DNA from: an uncultured Coriobacteriaceae bacterium
GTDB lineage: Bacteria > Actinomycetota > Coriobacteriia > Coriobacteriales > Atopobiaceae
Length of the DNA stretch: 64,000 nt
Direction: 5' to 3'
NCBI GenBank assembly: GCA_902777325.1
Contig: CACYTH010000009.1
Location: forward strand, 88,819 to 152,818
Shown here piece by piece: positions 8,101-42,718 of the stretch; the stretch's first letter is position 1; each line of letters starts with the position of its first letter. The position numbers and the translations under genes are program-made. Under the pieces are notes generated by a model. It saw nothing but the letters and a program-made list of their open reading frames with translations. It ran no database searches and was not told where the DNA came from.

Positions 8101-8123
8101 ACCTTATACAAACGCACTTAGAT
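8101..8123 (+). promoter_or_regulatory. Putative HspR operator/heat-shock element upstream of clpB
   Basis: ACCTTATA-N6-CACTTAGAT lies 76 bp before the clpB start. The identical outer blocks at identical spacing occur upstream of hsp20 at 13793. On the opposite strand it reads TCTAAGT-N7-TATAAGG, which has the 7-7-7 geometry of HAIR (CTTGAGT-N7-ACTCAAG) but is degenerate. Assignment to HspR is inference. Confidence 0.55.
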
Positions 8124-25831: not shown

Positions 25832-26124
25832 TTTCGCGTGGTGCACTGCGGGGTTGGGGACGCGGCGAAATTTCACGGCTGGTGCAGTGCGCCGGATGGC
25901 GCCCGGCGAAAATCTACGCTCGGTGCGCTGCGTGCGGTTGCGTTGGGCGGGAATTTTCGACTGGTTCACCGTGGCGCGGAATCGGGTGCACCAGGCGAAA
26001 AATACCGCCGCGATACTCGCCCCAGAGTGCACCACGCGAAAATCTTGACGAGCCCCCGATTCTGGAGTGCACCAAGTGAAAACTTTTGCCCCGCCCCAGA
26101 CCTCGGAGTGCACCAAGCGAAAAC
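25832..26124. repeat. Inverted array of eight ~20-bp units, copy 1
   Basis: Four left-facing units start near 25832, 25871, 25911 and 25953; four right-facing units near 25983, 26023, 26064 and 26105. The core is GTGCACCAAGCGAAAA (right) and its complement (left). Within each arm the spacing is 40-42 bp; across the centre it is 22 bp. The unit-to-unit spacers also pair across the centre (for example GGCGAAATTTCAC against GTGAAAACTTTTGCC), so the whole block is one imperfect ~290-bp palindrome. A homologous copy in the same orientation lies at 27440. The 488-bp gap holds no convincing gene. Confidence 0.85.
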
Positions 26125-26302
26125 TCTTGCCATGCCCCGAGCCCTGTGTGTAAAGCGTGACGATGTGGCTCAAATTCCCCAGCTCTTTTGTATGTAGGCA
26201 CGAACAAAAGGCGAGCTACAAGAGTTGCATCCCATCCATGTGCGACCATTTGGCTACCGAGTGCCTACAGTGCGCCAACGTCACTGCCCTACGCTTCTGC
26301 CT

Positions 26303-27385
26303 ATGGACATTGTGATTACGGGTAAGAGCGCCCTAACGCTCTACAGGCAAATGAGGGCAGGCAAACTGCAGCTTAAGGCGAAGCCCATCCCCATGGCTTT
26401 CGTCTCATGGGAGAAGCTCGACGGCAAACAAGTGCGGGAGCTAAGTATTCCCGCCCTCGAGACGTCGGGACTCTTTACCGTAGACAGGCCGCTGGATCTA
26501 CGCGTGCGTGATACACGGGATAGGGTGCGCCTCGGGACGGTCGTCTGTCACGCAACAACCAAGCCGCTCCCAGGCGGTTCGATCGTCGAGCTTACGGCGC
26601 CTTGGCACAGTGCCGACTTGCTGCCGTTGGAGCAGGGATGCCGCGTCCTCATGGACAGCGCGCCGCTGATGATTTTGGACATGGCTGGCCAGCTCTGTGA
26701 GCACGTGAACAATGGGAAGATGTCCCATGACGTCGGGATAATGAGGCTCACGGAGTTGATTTGCGAGTTTTGCGGTACATACGCGAGACACTATCTGAAC
26801 CCACGAAACGGCGAGATGACCTTTGAGATCGAGCCAGCAACTACGGTAAGCGAGGTCAGAGAATACCTGTCCCGCGTGCGTGGCATATCGGGGATCAAGC
26901 TTGCACGAGCGGCGGTTGCGCTGGCAGTCGATAAGCTGGCGTCGCCTATGGAGCTCGTGGTGTACGCGGCGATGGCGTTTCCGCCACGTCTGGGCGGTCT
27001 GCACATTCAAGACATACGGGTCAACGAGCCGCTCAACCTGTCGGTGGTGCCCAGGGGTACGCTAGCTCACCAGCAGTTGACTCCGGACCTTAGGGTTGGA
27101 GACCGACCAGTGGTTGTCGAGTACAACGGCAAGGAGCATCTCAAGAAATACCGTGTGCGGCAGGACAAGAATCGCGCACAGGACTATGCGAAGCTCGGCA
27201 TCTACCAGTATCCGCTGATGATCGAAGATGTCTGTACGGTCGATGCGCTTGAGCGAACGTTACGGGACTTTGTTGACTTGCTGACGCCGTACGAAGGCCT
27301 CAGCTTTCGCGCCAGGACGCTACGCATTCTCCGCGACCGAAAATACAGAGCTGCTCGACAGCGCCTGCTTGACACGTATCTATAA
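26303..27385 (+). CDS. AbiEi-like protein with PD-(D/E)XK nuclease-like C-domain
   Basis: This 360-residue protein is only partly recognisable. The N-terminus (MDIVITGKSALTLYRQMRAG) resembles the start of AbiEi/DUF559-type proteins common in Coriobacteriia. The C-terminal third carries a PD-(D/E)XK pattern: SPMELVVYAAM (Glu), LTPDLRV (Asp), VVVEYNGKEH (Glu, with Asn where Asp is usual), then a basic helix KKYRVRQDKNRAQDYAKLG. It may be a DNA nuclease, a regulator, or an inactive relative. Start ATG 26303 has no clear ribosome site; TTG 26225 is an alternative. Base composition is less GC-rich than neighbours. It is flanked by two copies of the inverted array, which suggests acquisition. Confidence 0.65.
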   Translation: MDIVITGKSALTLYRQMRAGKLQLKAKPIPMAFVSWEKLDGKQVRELSIPALETSGLFTVDRPLDLRVRDTRDRVRLGTVVCHATTKPLPGGSIVELTAPWHSADLLPLEQGCRVLMDSAPLMILDMAGQLCEHVNNGKMSHDVGIMRLTELICEFCGTYARHYLNPRNGEMTFEIEPATTVSEVREYLSRVRGISGIKLARAAVALAVDKLASPMELVVYAAMAFPPRLGGLHIQDIRVNEPLNLSVVPRGTLAHQQLTPDLRVGDRPVVVEYNGKEHLKKYRVRQDKNRAQDYAKLGIYQYPLMIEDVCTVDALERTLRDFVDLLTPYEGLSFRARTLRILRDRKYRAARQRLLDTYL

Positions 27386-27439: not shown

Positions 27440-27733
27440 ATCTCCGCTTGGTGCAGTCAGTGGCTTTGGGTACAGCGATATTATGCAGCTGGTGCACTGC
27501 GCTGGGTGGTGTTCGGCGAGAATTCGCTCCTGGTGCGCCGTCCGCGGTGGCATTGGGAGGGATTTTCCGCGTGGTGCATCGCGGCGCGGAATCGAGTGCA
27601 CCAATCGAAAAATACCGCCGCGACAATCGCACAGGGTGCACCAGGCGAGCATTTTAGCCGCGCCTCCGATTCCGCAGCGCACCAAGCGCAAACTTTTGCC
27701 CCACCCCAGACTCCGGACTGCACCAAGCGCAAA
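27440..27733. repeat. Inverted array of eight ~20-bp units, copy 2
   Basis: This has the same plan as the array at 25832: left-facing units with cores near 27451, 27492, 27533 and 27573, then right-facing units near 27596, 27636, 27677 and 27718. Spacing is 40-41 bp in each arm and 23 bp at the centre. The centre is strongly conserved between copies (GGCGCGGAATCG and GAAAAATACCGCCGCGA). It fills most of the 451-bp gap between the nuclease-like gene and the AI-2E-family gene; I see no gene in it. Confidence 0.85.
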
Positions 27734-28984: not shown

Positions 28985-29359
28985 ATGGGCGCCTTCAACG
29001 ACAAGGTCTACGAGGTGGTCCGCCAGATTCCGTACGGCTGCGTGAGTACGTACGGGGACATCGCGCGGGCCATCGGCCAGCCGCGCAAGGCGCTCTTTGT
29101 GGGATACGCCATGAAGAGCTCCCTCGAGGAGGGTGCGGTTCCGTGCCATCGCGTGGTCTACAAGGACGGGCGCATCTACCCGACCGACGAGGAAGGAAAC
29201 CCCACGGTCCAGAGCATCATGCTGCACCGCGAGGGCGTGCCGTTCTTGGACGAGGAGCACGTTGACCTTGCGGCATGCCATTGGACACCTGGTCGCCTTG
29301 ACGCCGAGGGGCGCCCGGCCGACATCGACTGGGCTGCCGAGATGGGAGACCTGTTTTAG
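28985..29359 (+). CDS. Methylated-DNA--cysteine S-methyltransferase domain protein
   Basis: This 124-residue protein corresponds to the C-terminal DNA-repair domain of Ogt/MGMT alone. It keeps the active PCHRVV motif with Cys54 and the helix-turn-helix part (VSTYGDIARAIGQPRKALFVGYAM). Because the Cys is present, it is more likely a true O6-alkylguanine acceptor than an alkyltransferase-like (ATL) protein, in which Cys is replaced by Trp or Ala; the missing N-terminal domain is ATL-like. After PCHR it diverges, with a longer acidic end. It directly follows the AI-2E-family gene (3 bp) and is probably cotranscribed. Confidence 0.82.
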   Translation: MGAFNDKVYEVVRQIPYGCVSTYGDIARAIGQPRKALFVGYAMKSSLEEGAVPCHRVVYKDGRIYPTDEEGNPTVQSIMLHREGVPFLDEEHVDLAACHWTPGRLDAEGRPADIDWAAEMGDLF

Positions 29360-29478
29360 CCTCGCGCTTGAACTAGGCGTCCGTTCTTCCCTCGCGTACA
29401 TAATATATATAGAGTTGACGAGAAGGCACATGCATATATGTAGTGCCTGTCCGTAACGCATGGCAACAAGGCCCGGAG

Positions 29479-30378
29479 CTAGTCCCTCTTGCCAAGCTTG
29501 TTGAAGTGCTCCTGCAGGGCCAGGCGAACCTCGCGCAAGCGCTTTGCGGGGATGGGAATCACGGTGCCGGTGGTCAGGTAGAGGGAGTCCTGCTCAAAGC
29601 GACTGATGTATGCGGGGTTGATGGCGTAGCTGCGATGCACGCGCACCACCACCGAGCTCAGCTGATCCGCGATCGAGGCGATTGAGGCGCGCAGACGCAG
29701 GCGTCGGTCGGTGCAGTAGATGTCGGTGTACTGGTGCGCGGCAGCAACGTAGATGATGCTATCCGGCTGGATCCAGTGGGTCACGCCGTCGGTGCCGCGC
29801 GCCTGCAGGGCTGGCTGGCGCTCGCCTGGGTCGCCCGCATCTCGCAGGGTACCGATGGAAGGACTTGCCACGCGAGGCTTGTCGAAGGCACGCTCCAAAT
29901 CTCGGGAAGCACCGGGGAAGCCCCTCCAGCTCCAAAGTGCCAGCTTGCACTCGTCGCCCCTGTCCTTCGACCAAACGGTCGTACAAAGAAAGCGGTTGGG
30001 CGACGCGGGGCGACGTTGCACGGAACCCTCCGAACCAGACTCCTCAACACAATGGTGCGCCAGTACCATGCAGGCGTCATTGCCGAGCGGCGTGACGTCG
30101 TACTGCTCGTCACGCATAACGAGGCGAGAGGCGTAACCGTCGCGCATGGTCTGCAGCACCCTGGTAATCTGCGTCGGACCCGAGTATTCAAATGGGTCCT
30201 CGGCGGCTATGAGTCTGCTCGCACTGTCGACCATATGGGCGCAAGCGTCGACGGCATTGGCCCAGAAGAGCCAGAGGAGCTCACGGCTCAGCGAGGCGGC
30301 AGAAAGCTCAAAGTCAGACAGATCCGCTCCATAGGAACCATCGCCGGCAGCAAAGCTGTCGGGTAACAGCGAGATCAT
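29479..30378 (-). CDS. LytTR-domain transcriptional regulator
   Basis: This 299-residue protein has no receiver domain. The C-terminal ~95 residues form a LytTR DNA-binding domain (SIIYVAAAHQYTDIYCTDRR, VVVRVHRSYAINPAYISRF, VIPIPAKRLREVR). The N-terminal ~190 residues match no family I know and may sense a signal. I chose ATG 30378 because a GAGGGGGG run precedes it; other in-frame starts lie up to 30438. It is transcribed away from the large adhesin across ~570 bp of AT-rich DNA, so it is a good candidate regulator of that adhesin. Its codon use and Cys/His content differ slightly from neighbours. Confidence 0.82.
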   Translation of the reverse strand: MISLLPDSFAAGDGSYGADLSDFELSAASLSRELLWLFWANAVDACAHMVDSASRLIAAEDPFEYSGPTQITRVLQTMRDGYASRLVMRDEQYDVTPLGNDACMVLAHHCVEESGSEGSVQRRPASPNRFLCTTVWSKDRGDECKLALWSWRGFPGASRDLERAFDKPRVASPSIGTLRDAGDPGERQPALQARGTDGVTHWIQPDSIIYVAAAHQYTDIYCTDRRLRLRASIASIADQLSSVVVRVHRSYAINPAYISRFEQDSLYLTTGTVIPIPAKRLREVRLALQEHFNKLGKRD

Positions 30379-30949
30379 GGCGACACCCCCCCTCAAAGGC
30401 GTAACCATTGCTACTGGCAATCTAAAGAACAATCCCAAAGGTGATTATCGCTATATGTCTTCCGTTTGACCAAAGCGACAAGAAACTATTCTGCAAAGCA
30501 ATGAAATCACATAGTGAGCGGTTAATGCTAGCGAGATAAAACATTATCTGCGCAAGCGGCAAGCCTTAGAATAGCGGTAGATCATCCGAGTAGCCTAAAT
30601 GATATTCAAATACAGCATATAGGTCCAACATATTTCAATACTGGCATCAAGCTGAACAGTCATAAGCTGCAGTATCTAAGTCCAATGAAACGTATATATG
30701 AAGGTAAATCACTATAGTGTCATGTTAGTTCTCTAAATAGGTGCTTTCTCTCTGGAGGCGCTAGGTCAGTAATAGGAAATGCGAGAGGTAGTCATGGGCA
30801 GAAACGAGACCAAAACGCAGCCCGTCCCAGTGACAACACGAAAACGCAAACGACTCGGTTTTGATGCCCGGGCGGGGACGCCTCCCTCGGGCTTTTGGCA
30901 CGTAGGTGAGGCATCGTCCGCGCAAGGTAATGGTTCTAAGGGGTTGGCA
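30379..30949. other. AT-rich divergent regulatory region
   Basis: 571 bp between the LytTR regulator and the adhesin. About 30420-30780 is visibly AT-rich compared with the surrounding DNA. It includes CACTATAGTG at 30710-30719, a 10-bp palindrome, and scattered CAGT/GTTA motifs that could belong to LytTR sites, though I cannot align a convincing direct repeat. The adhesin frame stays open back to 30779, so part of this region could be coding. Confidence 0.6.
30866..30896 (+). promoter_or_regulatory. Possible attenuator hairpin in adhesin leader
   Basis: GCCCG/CGGGC closes an inner G-rich/C-rich stem and is followed by TTTT, 54 bp before the chosen adhesin start. It could be a leader terminator. 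It would instead lie inside coding sequence if translation starts at 30779 or 30794. Confidence 0.35.
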
Positions 30950-33700
30950 ATGAGTAGAAGATCGAAGCTGAGAGCATGGGTGGTGGCACTGGTCGCCGCA
31001 CTTGCCGTGGTTGTGGGAAGCATCGGCGTCGCGTTTGCGGCTGTCGGTGATGTACCTCCGCACACGAAGAATCTGAGGAACAATCAAGACGGCACGTACA
31101 CGCTGTCCCTCGACGTGGTCGGCGACTCTGAGAAGAAGCCCAATAATGTCAACGTCATCGTGATCTTCGATACGTCAGGCTCGATGACGCAGCAGCGCAT
31201 GACTGCTGCGAAGAACGCTGTCAACAGTTTGGCCAACTCGCTATACGCCTATAACACGTCAAGCGAGCCTGATACTGTTGAGATGGCGCTCGTGCGCTTC
31301 GCGACGTCGTCCCGTGTCGCGCAGCAGCCTACGGCGAATGCAAACACGTTCCGCAGCACGGTCAATGGTCTTGGTAATGCTGGAGACGGTGGCACTAACT
31401 GGGAGTCGGCGTTGCAGACCGCCAATGGCGTGAACTTCAATGATAACGATCAGACGTTCGTCGTCTTCGTATCCGACGGCAACCCCACGTTCCGCACTTC
31501 GCAGAACGGCTGGAATGACTGGAGCAACCAGTATCAGCAGTGGGGTAGCGGCCGGGAGACTGCCACGAATATCCAGCGTTGTTACACGACGGCTGTTGAC
31601 GACGCTAAGGCTCTTGCCACCAAGGTTACCCCTGCCAACTTCTTCACGATTGGTGCCTTCGGCAACGTTGACCGTATGGAGCAGCTGACCGACGATGCTG
31701 GTTCCAACTCGGACACCAATTACTACAACGCCTCTGACACCGCGGCCCTCAATCAGGCCATCTCGGAAATCCTTGCAAAGATTGAGATGTCCGGTATCGG
31801 CAACACCTCGATTGAGGACGGCACCACAAACAGTGTGACCACCTCGTCAGGAGAGATCGCCAATCTTCTCGAGGTCGATACATCTTCATTCAAGTACTCC
31901 CGTTCTGGCGGTTCGTATGGAACCGGCCAGGATTGGGCTGACGCACCAGAAGCTAAGCTTGTGAACGGTGCGGTCGAGTGGGACCTCTCCAAGGAGGGTA
32001 CCAACGGCATTCTCGAGAACGGCGTGAAGTACACCGTCACCTTTGACGTGTATCCCAGCCAGACTACCTACGACACCATTGCCAAGCTCAAGAACGGCGA
32101 CATCACGTACGACAGCCTTGATTCCGAGATTAAGAAGTACATCGTTGACAACGGAGGCGGCGCTTACTCACTGCGCACCAACACCAACGCAACGCTGTCC
32201 TATGACGACACTCGCGATGAGGAGGGGCAACAGGAGAGTCCGTACGTTAACCCTGATCCTGTGGCGACTGACGCTGAGATGCTGACCGTCAAGAAGGAGT
32301 GGGTTGGCGCAAATCCTCCGAGCGGCGATCTCAAGATGACCGTCAACATGGATGGCGAGGCGTTCAGCACTGTTACACTGAACAGTGGCAACAGCTGGTC
32401 TGACGATTCGTATATCTCAATCGGCATCATCAAGAACGGCGAGGCGCTCCCCGGTGCCGAGGGCCACGACTTCAGCTTTGCAGAGCTTGACGGCTCGCAG
32501 TATCGCTGGGAGCTCGATGCGCCGACAGTGCATCCGATGCTTGTGAACGGCAAGCTGACTATGCTCGTGAAGGAGGATGCCGACCATAAGGCCCCGGCCG
32601 GTGCAACCAAATATACGATCGGCCAGGGCACGTACTATGTGGACAATGCCGTCACCAACCTCACGGCAACCAATACGCGTCGCTCCAACCTCAATCTGAA
32701 GAAAGTCGTAACTGGCGATAATGCCCCTGCTGACGCCCTGTTCCCCTTCACCCTGAAGGTTAAGAACTCGAAGGCCGACCCCAGCGACAGCACGAACGGG
32801 GACAATGTTGTGTGGTTCTCGATCCAGGACAAGGACGGGAATATCGTTAAGGACGCCAGCCGCGTCTCTGGCGCGACGGCCGAAGATGGCGACACTGGTT
32901 ATTACTATGCTGACAGCAATGCTGCAATCAGCGTAAAGCTCAAGGCTGGCGAGAACCTCCGCTTCACCAACCTGCCTTCTGGCTCCACCTATGAGTTCAC
33001 CGAGGGTGACGCATCTGGCTTCGAGTTCGTGACGGCCGAGAATACCGGCGAGAATGATTCGACCTTTACTGGTGGGAAGACGTCAACTGGTACGGTTGAG
33101 AAAGCTGGCAACCTGTCTTATGAGGTGACTTACACCAATAAGTACACTCCCGAGCCCGTTAAGGCTAGCTTCCCCGTCAAGAAGGTCATCGAGAAGGCTG
33201 ACGGCCTGACTGGCCCCTCCGAGTGGAGCTACACGATCGATGTGACCGCCAACGGCAACGCGCCTGAGGCTGAGACTATGACCGGTACAGTCAACCAGAG
33301 CAATGACACGGTTACTTTCGGCGACTTCACGTTTACCGCGCCTGGAACCTATACCTATACCGTGAAGGAGACGGGTACTGTTGCTGGCGTCACTAACGAT
33401 GCGGACGCTGCCGGCAAGACCGTCACCATCAAGGTCGAGGACAAGAACGGCGACGGTAAGCTGACTGCAACCGTTACTCCGACGGACGGCATTACCTTTA
33501 CCAATACGTATGACGCCAAGGGCGAGGCCGTTCTCGAGGTCACCAAGGCCGTCGAGGGCGCCGGCTGGCCCGCGGGCAAGAAGCTGACCTTCACGCTCGA
33601 CGGCGAGGGCGGCCGCTCCCGGAAAGGCGACCTTCGGCGCCATCAAGTACACCGCGGCCGACGCTGGCAAGACCTACACCTACACCATCTCCGAGGGTAA
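30950..33700 (+). CDS. Large pilin-repeat adhesin, N-terminal segment (frameshifted)
   Basis: The segment starts with a Sec signal (MSRRSKLRAWVVALVAALAV ... VAFAA, cleavage near residue 31). A von Willebrand A domain follows with MIDAS DTSGS at 74-78, then CnaB-like and pilin isopeptide-linkage (FctA/TIGR03786-type) repeats with the recurring pattern FTFxL ... YTYTVKETG ... TVTIKVEDK ... ITFTNTY. ATG 30950 has AAGGGG ahead and starts the signal peptide; ATG 30794 is a rival giving a long leader. True coding continuity ends near 33613: downstream the frame reads Arg/His-rich nonsense to the stop at 33700, while homology continues in the +1 frame. The start of this segment is less GC-rich than the repeats. 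Confidence 0.8.
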   Translation: MSRRSKLRAWVVALVAALAVVVGSIGVAFAAVGDVPPHTKNLRNNQDGTYTLSLDVVGDSEKKPNNVNVIVIFDTSGSMTQQRMTAAKNAVNSLANSLYAYNTSSEPDTVEMALVRFATSSRVAQQPTANANTFRSTVNGLGNAGDGGTNWESALQTANGVNFNDNDQTFVVFVSDGNPTFRTSQNGWNDWSNQYQQWGSGRETATNIQRCYTTAVDDAKALATKVTPANFFTIGAFGNVDRMEQLTDDAGSNSDTNYYNASDTAALNQAISEILAKIEMSGIGNTSIEDGTTNSVTTSSGEIANLLEVDTSSFKYSRSGGSYGTGQDWADAPEAKLVNGAVEWDLSKEGTNGILENGVKYTVTFDVYPSQTTYDTIAKLKNGDITYDSLDSEIKKYIVDNGGGAYSLRTNTNATLSYDDTRDEEGQQESPYVNPDPVATDAEMLTVKKEWVGANPPSGDLKMTVNMDGEAFSTVTLNSGNSWSDDSYISIGIIKNGEALPGAEGHDFSFAELDGSQYRWELDAPTVHPMLVNGKLTMLVKEDADHKAPAGATKYTIGQGTYYVDNAVTNLTATNTRRSNLNLKKVVTGDNAPADALFPFTLKVKNSKADPSDSTNGDNVVWFSIQDKDGNIVKDASRVSGATAEDGDTGYYYADSNAAISVKLKAGENLRFTNLPSGSTYEFTEGDASGFEFVTAENTGENDSTFTGGKTSTGTVEKAGNLSYEVTYTNKYTPEPVKASFPVKKVIEKADGLTGPSEWSYTIDVTANGNAPEAETMTGTVNQSNDTVTFGDFTFTAPGTYTYTVKETGTVAGVTNDADAAGKTVTIKVEDKNGDGKLTATVTPTDGITFTNTYDAKGEAVLEVTKAVEGAGWPAGKKLTFTLDGEGGRSRKGDLRRHQVHRGRRWQDLHLHHLRG
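33515..33613 (+). repeat. 99-bp exact repeat at first adhesin frameshift, copy 1
   Basis: The 99 bases from GCCAAGGGCGAGGCC to GGCGAGGGCGGC are identical to 34548-34646. After it, 10 bases separate the block from AAGGCGACC, where a multiple of three is needed, which shifts the frame by +1. Confidence 0.9.
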
Positions 33701-33734
33701 TGGGTTTGGCACCGGCTGGACCGGCTCCGGCGAC

Positions 33735-34760
33735 GTGACCGCCACCGTCAAGGTCACCGACAACGGCAACGGCACGCTCAAGGCCGACGTCACCTACTCG
33801 CCCGAGGACGCGACCATCACCAACACCTACAAGGCCAAGGGCTCTGCCGAGATCGAGGTCACCAAGAAGCTCACCGGCCGCGACTGGCTCGACGGCGAGA
33901 CCTTCACCTTCACGCTGACCGGCCCGAACGGTGTGAACGAGTCTGTCGAGGTCAGCGAGAACAGCCCCGTCGCGAAGTTCCAGGCCATTAGCTATACTCA
34001 GGCGGACATCGACAAGACCTACACCTACACCGTCTCCGAGACCGGCAACCTGCCTGGCGGCATCACCAAGTCCGGCGACGTGACCGTGACCGTCAAGATC
34101 ACTGACAAGGGCGACGGCACGCTGGCCACCGATGTCTCCTACCAGGACGGCAACAACACCATCACCAACAAGTACGATGCCACGGGTTCCGTCGAGCTCG
34201 AGGCCATCAAGAAGCTCGAGGGCCGCGATTGGAAGGAAGGCGAGTCCTACACCTTCACCCTCAAGGACGCCGATGGCAACGTCCTCGACGAGAAGACCGT
34301 GAGCTCCAACACCAAGGTGTCCTTCGACGCGCTTGAGTACACCGAGGAGGACATGGTCGACGAGAATGGCAACTATGCCTCTGAGGTCATCCTCAACTAC
34401 ACCATCGAAGAGACAACCAAGATGCCGGGCGGCATGACGAACTCCGGCAAGATCAACGTGACCGTCACGCTGACTGACGACGGCGAGGGCAACATCACCG
34501 CGAAGGCTGACTACACCAACAACGACACTATCACCAACACCTACGAGGCCAAGGGCGAGGCCGTTCTCGAGGTCACCAAGGCCGTCGAGGGCGCCGGCTG
34601 GCCCGCGGGCAAGAAGCTGACCTTCACGCTCGACGGCGAGGGCGGCGCAAGGCGACCTTCGGCGCCATCAAGTACACCGAGGCCGACGCGGGCAAGACCT
34701 ACACCTACACCATCTCCGAGGACGGCTTCGGCGACGGCTGGACCGGCTCCGGCGACGTGA
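33735..34760 (+). CDS. Large pilin-repeat adhesin, middle segment (other frame)
   Basis: This is the same gene as the flanking segments but read in the +1 frame. Protein similarity begins earlier, at about 33624 (KATFGAIKYT), and runs to about 34646. It holds about three isopeptide-linkage repeats with Lys-rich openings (EVTKKLTGRDWLDGETFTF, EAIKKLEGRDWKEGESYTF) and the usual TNTY ends. These domains form Lys-Asn bonds that stiffen Gram-positive pilins. The last residues before the stop at 34760 (GGARRPSAPSS...) are out-of-frame nonsense. No independent ribosome site is convincing, so it is probably not a separate gene. Confidence 0.7.
   Translation: MTATVKVTDNGNGTLKADVTYSPEDATITNTYKAKGSAEIEVTKKLTGRDWLDGETFTFTLTGPNGVNESVEVSENSPVAKFQAISYTQADIDKTYTYTVSETGNLPGGITKSGDVTVTVKITDKGDGTLATDVSYQDGNNTITNKYDATGSVELEAIKKLEGRDWKEGESYTFTLKDADGNVLDEKTVSSNTKVSFDALEYTEEDMVDENGNYASEVILNYTIEETTKMPGGMTNSGKINVTVTLTDDGEGNITAKADYTNNDTITNTYEAKGEAVLEVTKAVEGAGWPAGKKLTFTLDGEGGARRPSAPSSTPRPTRARPTPTPSPRTASATAGPAPAT
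34548..34646 (+). repeat. 99-bp exact repeat at second adhesin frameshift, copy 2
   Basis: This block is identical to 33515-33613. Here only 2 bases separate it from AAGGCGACC, shifting the frame by -1 and restoring the frame of the first segment. Confidence 0.9.
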
Positions 34761-37522
34761 CCGCCACCGTCAAGGTCACCGACGACGGCGAAGGCAAACT
34801 GTCCACCGAGATCACCTACGACAAGAACGACACCATCACCAACACCTATAAGGCCGAGGGCAGCGTGACTCTCGAGGCTGCAAAGGTGCTTACTGGTCGC
34901 GACTGGCAGAAGGATGAGACGTTTACCTTCCAGCTTCTTGACTCAACTGGCAAGATGCTTCAGGAGAAGGACGTCTCCGCGAACGGTACCGTTACTTTCG
35001 ATGCGATTAAGTACACCGAAGCTGACTCTGGTAAGACCTATGAGTACACCATCACCGAGAAGGCTCCTCTGCCTGTCAACGTCGAGAAATCAGAAGATGT
35101 TAAAGCCACTGTCGTAGTCAATGATGATGGGCAGGGTAAGCTTACTGCTGACGTTAGCTACAGCCCGAAGGACAAGACAATCACCAACACCTACACGCCG
35201 ACCCCGGTGAAGGCATCCATCACGGTCAACAAGACCATCGACGATTACATTGCCGGCTCTGACAAGACGTTCAAGTTTACGATGACTCCGGTCGACGGCG
35301 CCCCCATGCCCGAGGGCAAGGACACCGTCACCGCCGAGATCACAACCAAGGACGGCACGGGCACGGTGAATCTCGACGAGATCACCTACACCGAGAAGGG
35401 CGATTACAAGTATCAGGTCGTCGAGACCGCGGACGGCGCCGCCGGCTGGACCTACGATACGAAGACGTACGAGGTCACCGTCAAGGTGACAGACGACCCG
35501 ACCACCGGCAAGCTCTCTGCAAAGGTCGAGTACGGCAACGATGCTACTGCTGTAGACGTTCACAATTCTTTCAAGGAAGAGGCGATTGATGTCACCTTGC
35601 ACGTCGACAAGGTCATCGAGGACAAGTCCAACAGCGCTGAGAACGGCATCTTCACCTTCGTGCTAACCCCGGCTGATGGCGCTCCCGGCGAGCCCCAGAC
35701 TATCGAGATCGAGACCACAGAGCTCAAGGGTGGTAAGGACTTCGCACCCATCACGTTCACGAAGTCCGGTACCTACAACTACACGATTCAGGAAACCGGT
35801 ACCGACGGCAACGGATGGGATTACGACACCAAGAAGTACCCGGTCGTCATCAAGGTGAGCGACAATTTCGAGACGGCCAAGCTCGAGAGCGAGACCACCA
35901 TCGATGGTGAGAGCACCACGAAGGTGACCATCACCAACGTGTACAAGGCCGACCCCGTGACCCTGTCGACCATCGAGGTCACCAAGAGCATCGAAGACAC
36001 CTCCGGCAGCGCGCCTGAGACCACCTTCGAGTTCACGCTGGCGACCACCGATGACTCGCCCATGCCCGAGGCTGGCGGCGAGAAGAAGTCCGTGACCGGC
36101 GAGGGCACGGCGACCTTCGGCGAGATTAAGTACGAGAAGGCCGGCACCTACAACTACACCATCACCGAGACCAAGGGCGGTGGCCTTGGTTGGCAGAACG
36201 ACACGACCACCTACCCGGTTGTCGTGACCGTTACGGACAACGGCGGCAAGCTTGAGGCGGTAGTTGCCTACGGCGAGGACCAGACGAGCCTGACGGTCAA
36301 GAACACCTACGATCCCAAGGACGCCACGGCCGCGCCTCAGCTGCGTAAGGTGATCGAGGACCTGTCCAACAGCGTCCCCGACGAGACCTTCACCTTCAAG
36401 CTGACCCCGAGTGCCGGCGCGCCGGGCGAGGTCCAGACGAAGGAGATCGAGAACGGCGGCCCCGTGGTCTTCGACGCGATCACGTTCGACAAGGTTGGCA
36501 CCTACAACTACACCGTCCAGGAGGCCGAGGGCAAGACCAACGGCTACACCTACGACACAGAGGCCCACGCCGTGACCATTAAGGTTACCGACCCGGGCGA
36601 CGGCCAGCTCAAGGCAGAGATCAAGTATGCCGATGCCAACGAGGACGGCGAACTTGTGATCACCAACATCTACGAGGCCGAGCCCACCTCCCTGGTGCTT
36701 GACGTCGAGAAGGTCATCTCCGGTCCTGTGGATCCGAAGAAGGATGCTACCTTCACCTTCGAGATGACCGGCGACGCCGAGATGACCACGTCCGTCACGG
36801 GCGAGGGCACCGCAAGCTTCGACGAGATCAAGTACACCGAGGCTGGCACCTACTACTACACCGTGACCGAGGTTCCTGGCGACAGCGACGACTACATCTA
36901 CGACGGCACCGTCTACACCGTCACGGTTGAGGTTGTCGACGAGGGCGGCAAGCTCGTGGCAACGCCGACCATCAGCGCTGATGGCGCGGACGTCGACAGC
37001 ATCGTCTTCGACAACCCGTACGTCCCCGAGGTTGGCCTCAAGGTCACCAAGACGGTCACCTCCAAGCCCGCCAACGGCAGCTACTACAAGGAGGGCGAGA
37101 CGGTCAAGTACATGATCGTCGTGACCAACACGGGCGAGTGCGACCTTGCCGACGTCAAGGTTGACGACGAGCTCACTGGCGATCACTGGGTCGTCAAGAA
37201 GCTGGCCGCCGGCGCCTCCAAGGACTTCACCACCTCCTACAAGGTGACGAAGGATGACGTCAAGGCCGGTAGCGTCCTCAACGTGGTCACCGCCGAGGTC
37301 GAGAACCCGTACGACCCCGACGAGCCGCTCAAGGACGAGGACGACGTGGAGGTCCCGACCGGCAGCGATCAGACCCCGCCCAAGCCGAACCCGCCCAAGA
37401 AGAAGATCGTCATCCCGCAGACCGGCGACGACACCCCGACCGGCGCCATGGCAGCCCTGACCGTCTTCGGCGCGGCAGCCCTGACCGCGGGCACGGTCCT
37501 GCAGCGCCGCAAGCGCAAGTAG
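34757..37522 (+). CDS. Large pilin-repeat adhesin, C-terminal segment with LPXTG-type anchor
   Basis: Similarity starts at about 34649, in the same frame as the first segment. It contains about seven further FctA-like repeats of 95-110 residues (for example TLEAAKVLTGRDWQKDETF, TVNKTIDDYIAGSDKTFKF). A DUF11-like domain follows (KYMIVVTNTGECDLADVKV), then a Pro-rich spacer (PPKPNPPKKK) and a sortase signal IPQTGDD with a hydrophobic helix (AALTVFGAAALTAGTVL) and basic tail RRKRK. Reading across both shifts gives a surface protein of about 2,190 residues. A terminator follows at 37548. No class C sortase is adjacent; a class B sortase lies at 63026. Confidence 0.8.
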   Translation: MTATVKVTDDGEGKLSTEITYDKNDTITNTYKAEGSVTLEAAKVLTGRDWQKDETFTFQLLDSTGKMLQEKDVSANGTVTFDAIKYTEADSGKTYEYTITEKAPLPVNVEKSEDVKATVVVNDDGQGKLTADVSYSPKDKTITNTYTPTPVKASITVNKTIDDYIAGSDKTFKFTMTPVDGAPMPEGKDTVTAEITTKDGTGTVNLDEITYTEKGDYKYQVVETADGAAGWTYDTKTYEVTVKVTDDPTTGKLSAKVEYGNDATAVDVHNSFKEEAIDVTLHVDKVIEDKSNSAENGIFTFVLTPADGAPGEPQTIEIETTELKGGKDFAPITFTKSGTYNYTIQETGTDGNGWDYDTKKYPVVIKVSDNFETAKLESETTIDGESTTKVTITNVYKADPVTLSTIEVTKSIEDTSGSAPETTFEFTLATTDDSPMPEAGGEKKSVTGEGTATFGEIKYEKAGTYNYTITETKGGGLGWQNDTTTYPVVVTVTDNGGKLEAVVAYGEDQTSLTVKNTYDPKDATAAPQLRKVIEDLSNSVPDETFTFKLTPSAGAPGEVQTKEIENGGPVVFDAITFDKVGTYNYTVQEAEGKTNGYTYDTEAHAVTIKVTDPGDGQLKAEIKYADANEDGELVITNIYEAEPTSLVLDVEKVISGPVDPKKDATFTFEMTGDAEMTTSVTGEGTASFDEIKYTEAGTYYYTVTEVPGDSDDYIYDGTVYTVTVEVVDEGGKLVATPTISADGADVDSIVFDNPYVPEVGLKVTKTVTSKPANGSYYKEGETVKYMIVVTNTGECDLADVKVDDELTGDHWVVKKLAAGASKDFTTSYKVTKDDVKAGSVLNVVTAEVENPYDPDEPLKDEDDVEVPTGSDQTPPKPNPPKKKIVIPQTGDDTPTGAMAALTVFGAAALTAGTVLQRRKRK

Positions 37523-37547
37523 CTCCGCGCGACATCCAAGTACCACG

Positions 37548-37575
37548 AAGGCGCCCCGGACATCCGGGGCGCCTT
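37548..37575 (+). terminator. Terminator after the adhesin
   Basis: A perfect 12-bp stem (AAGGCGCCCCGG / CCGGGGCGCCTT) with an ACAT loop is followed by TCTCATAGG, 25 bp after the stop codon. Confidence 0.8.
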
Positions 37576-37649
37576 TCTCATAGGTCTAGCTCGCGATTTC
37601 AATGTGCAGGCCACCCGCTAAGCCCGCATACGCACCTCTTGCTGCGCTT

Positions 37650-37702
37650 ATTACGTGCCGTAATGCGTTTCAGCTTTGTCCGATACCAAATCTGGCTACA
37701 AT
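37650..37702 (+). promoter_or_regulatory. Putative promoter and operator of the folP-folK gene
   Basis: ATTACG-TGC-CGTAAT (37650-37664) is a perfect dyad just upstream of a possible -35 TTTGTC (37675-37680) and -10 TACAAT (37697-37702) with a 16-bp spacer. The leader to the start codon is ~57 nt. The regulator is unknown. Confidence 0.45.
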
Positions 37703-37765
37703 AGTTGCATCTGTATCTCGATACCACTGTCGCAGATGAGACGAAACACGAAAGGGACCAGATCC

Positions 37766-39202
37766 ATGCTCAGATCGGACTATTCAACCTGGCGCTGCGG
37801 CGCGTACGAGCTCTCGCTCTCCCGCCCGCGGATCATGGGCATTCTCAACGTGACCCCGGACTCCTTCTCCGATGGCGGCGAGAACCTCGATGTGGATGCT
37901 GCCATCGCTCGTGGCCTGCAGATGCTCGACGAGGGCGCCGACATCATCGACGTGGGCGGCGAGTCCACCCGTCCCGGCCACACGCCGGTCGACCCCGACG
38001 ACGAGGCCGAGCGCATCATTCCGGTGGTCCGTGCCCTCGCCGAGGCTGGTGCCATCGTGAGCGTTGACACGCGCCATGCGGAGGTCGCGAGCATCTGTCT
38101 GGAGCTGGGCGCATCCATCGTAAACGACGTCAGTGGCTTTACCGATCCCAACATGGTGCGCGTGGTCTCCGAGACCGAGTGCGGCTGCGTCATCATGTGC
38201 GACAACGAGTTCCGTGGCAACGAGAGCCGCAAGTCCGTGGTGCTCGAGTCAGTCAACCCGCGCCGCCGCGCTGCCGAGCCGCGCCAGCTGCCCGCCACGC
38301 GCAACCGCTTCACCTTGCCCGAGGAGGCGCCCATCATGCGCTCCATCATGGGCTTCCTGGGCGACCAGGCGCGCACCCTGCAGCGCGCAGGCGTGGCCCA
38401 CGACCGCATCTGCGTCGACCCGGGTCCGGGCTTCAACAAGACCACCGACGAGGACGTGGTCATCCAGCGCGCCATGCGCAAGCTTGACTCCATGGGTTAC
38501 GTGCTTATGCAGGCCGTTTCGCGCAAACGCTTTGTGGGCGCTATCACCGGTGAGCAGGACGTGCTCGATCGCGACGCCGCCACGACAGGCCTGGCCATCG
38601 CGGCTATCGAGGCGGGCGCCCGCGTGCTGCGCGTGCACAATGTGGCCGCTGCCGCCGACGCCATCAACGCCTATTGGGCCGTGGCCAAAAAGGACCCGCG
38701 CCAGGGCTTTATCGCGCTGGGCTCCAACGTGGGCGACCGCATGGGCTACCTGAGCCGCGCCTGCAAGCTGATCAACGAGATTCCCCTGACCTGCGTGGTC
38801 AACGTGAGCCATGCCTACGAGACCGAGCCCGCATACGGTATTGCGACCCCGGTTGCCGACGCCGTGGCCGAGATCCGCACCGAGCTGCACCCGCTGGTGC
38901 TGATGGACAAGCTGCTCGAGGTCGAGGACAAGCTCGACCGCGTGCGCAAGCCCGGCGAGGAGGGTCACGGCCCGCGCACCATCGACTGCGACCTGCTCTG
39001 GGTCGAGGACGAGCGCCACGCCGGCCCCAAGCTCACGCTGCCGCACCCGCGCCTGGGAGAGCGCGACTTTGTGCTGCTCCCGATGGAGGACCTCATGCAC
39101 GACCCCGTGCGCTTCTTCTCGCACGGCGGCGTCGAGGTGCTGCCGGTCGAGCAGCGCGTTGGCCGCGTTACCGACGAGCTGGGGGTCTTGGAGTGGGAGT
39201 AA
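37766..39202 (+). CDS. folP/folK: Dihydropteroate synthase / HPPK fusion (FolP-FolK)
   Basis: This 478-residue bifunctional folate enzyme has DHPS at about residues 15-310: IMGILNVTPDSFSDGG (pterin site), DVGGESTRPGHTPV, VSVDTRHAEVA, VNDVSGF, CVDPGPGFNKT and SRKRFVG. HPPK occupies about 318-478: IALGSNVGDRMGYLSRA, ETEPAYG and GPRTIDCDLLWVED, then TLPHPRLGERDFVLLP. It joins pABA to the pyrophosphorylated pterin that its own C-domain makes. The usual order in fused enzymes is HPPK first, so this reversed order is uncommon. DHPS carries a basic insert after CVIMCDNEF. AAAGGGA precedes the ATG. Confidence 0.92.
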   Translation: MLRSDYSTWRCGAYELSLSRPRIMGILNVTPDSFSDGGENLDVDAAIARGLQMLDEGADIIDVGGESTRPGHTPVDPDDEAERIIPVVRALAEAGAIVSVDTRHAEVASICLELGASIVNDVSGFTDPNMVRVVSETECGCVIMCDNEFRGNESRKSVVLESVNPRRRAAEPRQLPATRNRFTLPEEAPIMRSIMGFLGDQARTLQRAGVAHDRICVDPGPGFNKTTDEDVVIQRAMRKLDSMGYVLMQAVSRKRFVGAITGEQDVLDRDAATTGLAIAAIEAGARVLRVHNVAAAADAINAYWAVAKKDPRQGFIALGSNVGDRMGYLSRACKLINEIPLTCVVNVSHAYETEPAYGIATPVADAVAEIRTELHPLVLMDKLLEVEDKLDRVRKPGEEGHGPRTIDCDLLWVEDERHAGPKLTLPHPRLGERDFVLLPMEDLMHDPVRFFSHGGVEVLPVEQRVGRVTDELGVLEWE

Positions 39203-42547: not shown

Positions 42548-42718
42548 GTGGGACAGGGTGGGACAGGGGACGTGCCTGGTGTCCCACTCGACTGTAAAGC
42601 TGAAAGCAGGCGCATGTTTTATGGTCCCGAGTGGGACACCAGGCACGTCCCCTGTCCCACCCTGTCCCACCCGCCCCCTGTCCCACAAGAGTGGGACACC
42701 AGGCACGTCCCCTGTCCC
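42548..42718. repeat. GTGGGACA/TGTCCCAC repeat cluster
   Basis: Copy A (42548-42590) and copy B (42628-42670) are perfect 43-bp inverted repeats around a 37-nt spacer. Copy C (42689-42718) repeats 30 bp of B in direct orientation. Each unit is itself a hairpin, GTGGGACA-N14-TGTCCCAC, and extra CTGTCCCAC pieces lie between B and C. It sits in the 321-bp gap between divergent genes, ending 25 bp before the FAD-enzyme start, so it falls in that gene's probable leader. No other gene is visible in the gap. Confidence 0.88.

Follow-up and report, generated by a model that had tools for sequence, protein, structure and literature searches.

The window analysed here is a stretch of 64,000 nucleotides (positions 88819-152818 of contig C9) in a draft assembly of 48 contigs and 2.74 Mb. 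At 30779-37522, on the plus strand, it carries the gene of a giant adhesin with a vWA domain, DUF7604, DUF7601, an array of FctA domains (PF12892), DUF7507 and a Gram-positive anchor bearing IPQTG. The FctA profile has 11 matches on C9, two of which are half domains at the junctions listed below. According to the ORF listing and the repeat edges, the gene as deposited consists of three pieces that pass from frame A to frame B and back to frame A:

30779..33613, plus strand: upstream piece in frame A, with vWA, DUF7604 and DUF7601, a complete FctA domain and the initial third of the one after it
33515..33613, plus strand: copy 1 of a 99-bp block, equal in length to the contig-end overlap of the assembly
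33614..33623, plus strand: junction 1, a 10-base spacer to AAGGCGACC, frame A to frame B
33624..34646, plus strand: middle piece in frame B, with the remainder of one FctA domain, two whole ones and the opening third of the one that follows
34548..34646, plus strand: copy 2 of the 99-bp block
34647..34648, plus strand: junction 2, a 2-base spacer to AAGGCGACC, frame B to frame A
34649..37522, plus strand: downstream piece in frame A, with the remainder of one FctA domain, more FctA domains, DUF7507 and the IPQTG sortase anchor

The supporting frames are an ORF at 30779-33700, an open frame across 33606-34760 and an ORF at 34757-37522 that is open upstream to about 34655; frame A of the upstream piece stays open past 33613 until a stop at 33700. 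The start codon of the adhesin may lie at 30950, immediately ahead of a signal-peptide-like stretch. At its other end the last piece terminates with IPQTGD, a hydrophobic stretch and RRKRK, and the Gram_pos_anchor profile (PF00746) scores 23.5 bits (cut-off 20), so that the resumed frame does lead to a sortase signal, as the original prediction had proposed.

The same prediction placed an identical 99-bp block at 33515 and 34548. These coordinates are right, as 33515-33613 equals 34548-34646 and the identity is maximal on both sides. The block by far exceeds every other exact repeat in the window, the second longest measuring 49 bp, and its copies are spaced by 1033 bp (3 x 344 + 1). The spacers of 10 and 2 bases had been read as shifts of +1 then -1, which the offsets modulo 3 confirm (+1 after copy 1; +2, equivalent to -1, after copy 2). 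The ORFs likewise bear out that the intervening segment is read in another frame before the original one resumes, and the points where the frame switches coincide exactly with the right-hand ends of both blocks.

Shorter repeats are found elsewhere in the window. The 14-base motif TTCGCTTGGTGCAC, allowing at most 2 mismatches, occurs 10 times (0.54 matches expected by chance) in two clusters of five sites, at 25833-26121 and 27443-27731, which flank a gene at 26225-27385; in both clusters the first site is on the plus strand and the others on the minus strand, with a spacing of 153, 41, 40-41 and 41 bases. The stretch at 42548-42718, between two divergent genes, also contains short repeats, both inverted and direct (43 and 30 bp), has a GGACGTCCC-like core and may be regarded as a REP-like intergenic element.

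Two explanations of the paired frameshifts had been offered, namely assembly errors at a collapsed repeat or a real on/off switch; the former is strongly supported by the evidence given below, and the latter is not supported. In a phase-variable adhesin, recombination between the 99-bp copies or slippage in the spacers would toggle the production of a full-length anchored protein. Repetitive adhesins are a common class among variable genes, and a repeat pair with compensating shifts is indeed what the deposited sequence contains. Frame arithmetic nevertheless rejects recombination as the switch, since in none of the six arrangements considered, the gene as it is and five products (deletion, both conversions, one or two duplications), do all the segments share one frame. 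Slippage is rejected as well, there being no repeat tract at the junctions: within 30 bases on either side of them the longest homopolymer is 3 bases and the longest tandem run is the 6-base GGCGGC.

Besides changing the frame, which is all that had been described, both junctions lack part of a protein domain. They lie inside one kind of FctA domain (AWP...TLTL.G ... ATFG.I.Y), whose inter-strand linker has 18-21 codons (54-63 bases) in eight equivalent domains of relatives, compared to 22 and 14 bases in the two copies of the window. These eight domains were retrieved with one regular expression over seven relative sequences, with matches in G012, G015, L036 and L040. Relative to them, junction 1 is short by at least 32 bases and junction 2 by at least 40. 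In agreement with the missing linker bases, the matches of the FctA profile to the halves that follow the junctions begin late, at model positions 40 and 52; the remaining nine matches on C9 start at model position 1 or 2. A phase-variable gene would have both of its spacers devoid of part of a conserved domain.

Congeners G012 and G015 have orthologues that are unbroken open frames of 2871 and 2569 codons, respectively, the latter with IPRTG; both extend from a signal-peptide-like start to an anchor-like end and include the orthologous FctA run around the junction sites. Relatives with one open frame have a longest repeat of 93 (G012), 90 (L037), 62 (L036) and 56 bp (G015), their intactness being partly by construction since these genes had been picked as long open stretches. 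Among 14 relative genes, none being listed for L039 and L041, a single open frame is found in 11; the other three (G007, L040 and L044) have two overlapping open segments, which in L040 and L044 occur without long repeats. A gene need not be broken by a long exact repeat, as one of 239 bp is located within one open frame in L043, which comes from a different assembly. These orthologues also bear on programmed ribosomal frameshifting, by which a ribosome shifting +1 then -1 would read through the whole gene. Two such shifts would yield one polypeptide, as their net effect on the frame is zero. We nevertheless hold this to be wholly improbable, as G012 and G015 use one frame, no heptamer of the X_XXY_YYZ type was seen by eye at the two junctions, no Rfam structure was found in 29000-39000, and part of the domain would be missing regardless.

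The middle piece, compared in its own frame, has dN 0.25 and dS 0.42 with respect to G012 (dN/dS of about 0.6, just moderately below 1), and dN 0.38 and dS 0.62 with respect to G015; the comparison with L036 is saturated. It is conserved in this frame, as would be expected if it were normally translated along with the rest of the adhesin. The dS from G012 is lower in the middle piece than in the flanks (0.42 vs 1.50 and 0.77), and GC3 amounts to 0.92 in the middle piece (33624-34646), 0.72 upstream and 0.84 downstream. The GC3 and low dS of the middle piece possibly reflect strain mosaicism within the bin, or a strain mixture.

The length of the block matches a property of the assembly itself, which the original prediction had not noticed. 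Both 300-base ends of the 48 contigs were taken, C48 being excluded as it consists of N, and all 4371 pairs of the 94 unmasked ends were compared. Among 33 terminus-anchored exact overlaps of at least 12 bp, 19 are exactly 99 bp long, the rest range from 98 down to 13 bp and none is longer, from which it follows that the graph overlap of the assembler was 99. Such end overlaps are characteristic of assembly by de Bruijn graph, in which contigs share a 99-base node at forks, and the anomaly of the adhesin lies exactly at the end of a repeat of this length. By default, IDBA-UD uses a largest k of 100 with an overlap of 99, and this program, if it was the assembler of the draft, would explain the 99-base overlaps; the same would hold for SPAdes or MEGAHIT run at k = 99. 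The 16S rRNA gene was not found with model RF00177 in this genome rated 100% complete, which fits a short-read metagenome-assembled genome, as the draft probably is. A plasmid search and a scan for viral contigs gave no matches.

Breaks of the same kind recur outside the window. The 447,094 bases that we examined comprise the whole of C9, 220 kb from C1 and three stretches of 20 kb, one from C15 and two from C4. This sample is not entirely random, as three of the 20 stretches (in C15 and C4, with anchor or FctA matches) were picked for adhesin or anchor matches. Exact direct repeats that reach 99 bp number just three in these bases (99, 99 and 102 bp), and none is longer. Besides the block described above, the other two belong to an adhesin that is built differently and lies on the C15 minus strand, which they cut at four repeat edges into pieces in frames 1, 2, 0, 2 and 1, with a change at every edge. 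Two of these pieces had two stop-free frames; the frame encoding a protein like that of the neighbouring piece (e.g., SSDAEKVYDGTALTKDEVKV, RAGEYTIYVKG) was preferred over an Arg/His-rich one. Overall, the frame changes at six of six edges (three repeats with two copies each, four edges being in the C15 adhesin) and at the same edge in both copies, so that the break expected of a de Bruijn fork error is seen at all three repeats of at least 99 bp in 447 kb. A check of whether ORFs continue across the edges of 13 repeats was uninformative in that edges were scored "same" even at known breaks, since wrong frames stay open in DNA so rich in GC.

In G007, a congener, 20 contigs provide 32 unmasked ends with four terminal overlaps, two of which are exactly 99 bp. 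Its FctA gene contains an exact repeat of 99 bp, and the frame changes following copy 1; after copy 2 the linker is altered in frame (GHRGKTYEYT), in place of the GLADAGKTYEYT of the sister domain. The phase-variable adhesin becomes very unlikely when the same pattern is found in a second gene and a second genome, in each case at a length of 99, that of the graph overlap.

Other irregularities were observed along these contigs. Near position 95290 of C15 (locus L165, C15:80001-100000), a piece of the adhesin stops after ...TFTTSRPEGS, at a point where a paralogous repeat elsewhere in the gene goes on with TFTTSHEVTEADILAG; this stop is probably an additional break of the C15 adhesin. Outside the window, an exact repeat of 82 bp has its two copies at positions 8114 and 8283 of C9 in the same genome (G000), 169 bases from each other; the longest open frame of the minus strand changes there, and this could be another misjoin.

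The recurrence also weighs on the view that the gene is a real pseudogene, a decaying adhesin with two genuine deletions in which gene conversion would have maintained the identity of the 99-bp copies. Two random frameshifts compensate each other about half of the time, and a gene made of a repeat array is prone to rearrangement. However, the three pieces are otherwise free of stops and have intact FctA domains, deletions at the identical base of both copies and at the very end of a 99-bp block would be unexpected given the 99-bp contig overlaps, and the C15 adhesin would require four further such events, which makes decay a poor candidate that we consider highly improbable. There is similarly little chance that the frameshifts are real in a more general sense, i.e., that this lineage, including G007 and the C15 gene, possesses giant adhesins whose frame is lost and regained at identical edges of repeats, one example being silenced reservoirs that recombination with other, unseen copies would reassemble.

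Taking together the 99-bp contig overlaps, the recurrence in C15 and G007 and the missing linker, we conclude that both frameshifts are almost certainly local assembly errors in a short-read draft, and not a genetic switch. In this giant sortase-anchored adhesin, two of the FctA domains would be near-identical over more than the graph overlap of 99 bp. The graph would then fork at the shared 99-mer, and the assembler, scaffolding or gap-closing would join across each fork and lose a portion of the domain; judged by the equivalent domains of relatives, one copy lacks at least 32 bases and the other at least 40. Neither loss being a multiple of three, the deposited sequence leaves the frame, then returns to it. 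A simpler variant, in which the downstream branches of a true 99-bp repeat were swapped, was rejected, as by offset arithmetic the swap leaves the frame unrestored; the sequence that follows the block must therefore itself be wrong. The sequence directly shows that the block is as long as the contig-end overlap, that the pattern recurs in this genome and in a congener, that linker bases are missing, that the orthologues are intact and that the middle piece is conserved; the responsible assembler step and the true sequence at the joins are inferred. The actual gene is most likely one open frame.

Pairs of compensating frameshifts at exact repeats should be compared with the contig-end overlap length before a switch is proposed, a check that requires no reads and that decided the case of this adhesin. 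Split gene calls of giant adhesins in the assembly of the window and in that of G007 also result in inflated counts of pseudogenes.

No literature was found that matched FctA, isopeptide and Coriobacteri combined. The gene of the window shares its vWA domain, FctA (PF12892) array and Gram-positive anchor with FctA or Spy0128-like isopeptide-domain, sortase-anchored adhesins. The deposited copy is split over three frames, whereas its FctA-type orthologues in G012 and G015 are unsplit. Local errors in short-read metagenome assemblies have a published precedent in the work of Chen and colleagues (PMC7111523), which describes wrong consensus at local repeats within protein-coding genes, as in the adhesin reported here. 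The present case differs from those in that it rests on sequence only (a repeat length equal to the contig-end overlap, and recurrence), and not on read mapping. In the reference genomes of Porphyromonas gingivalis, going by the title of the report, repeats caused misassembly and the genomes were reannotated after long-read resequencing (PMC5771137); long reads settled that case, whereas the adhesin of the window is judged from its nucleotides.
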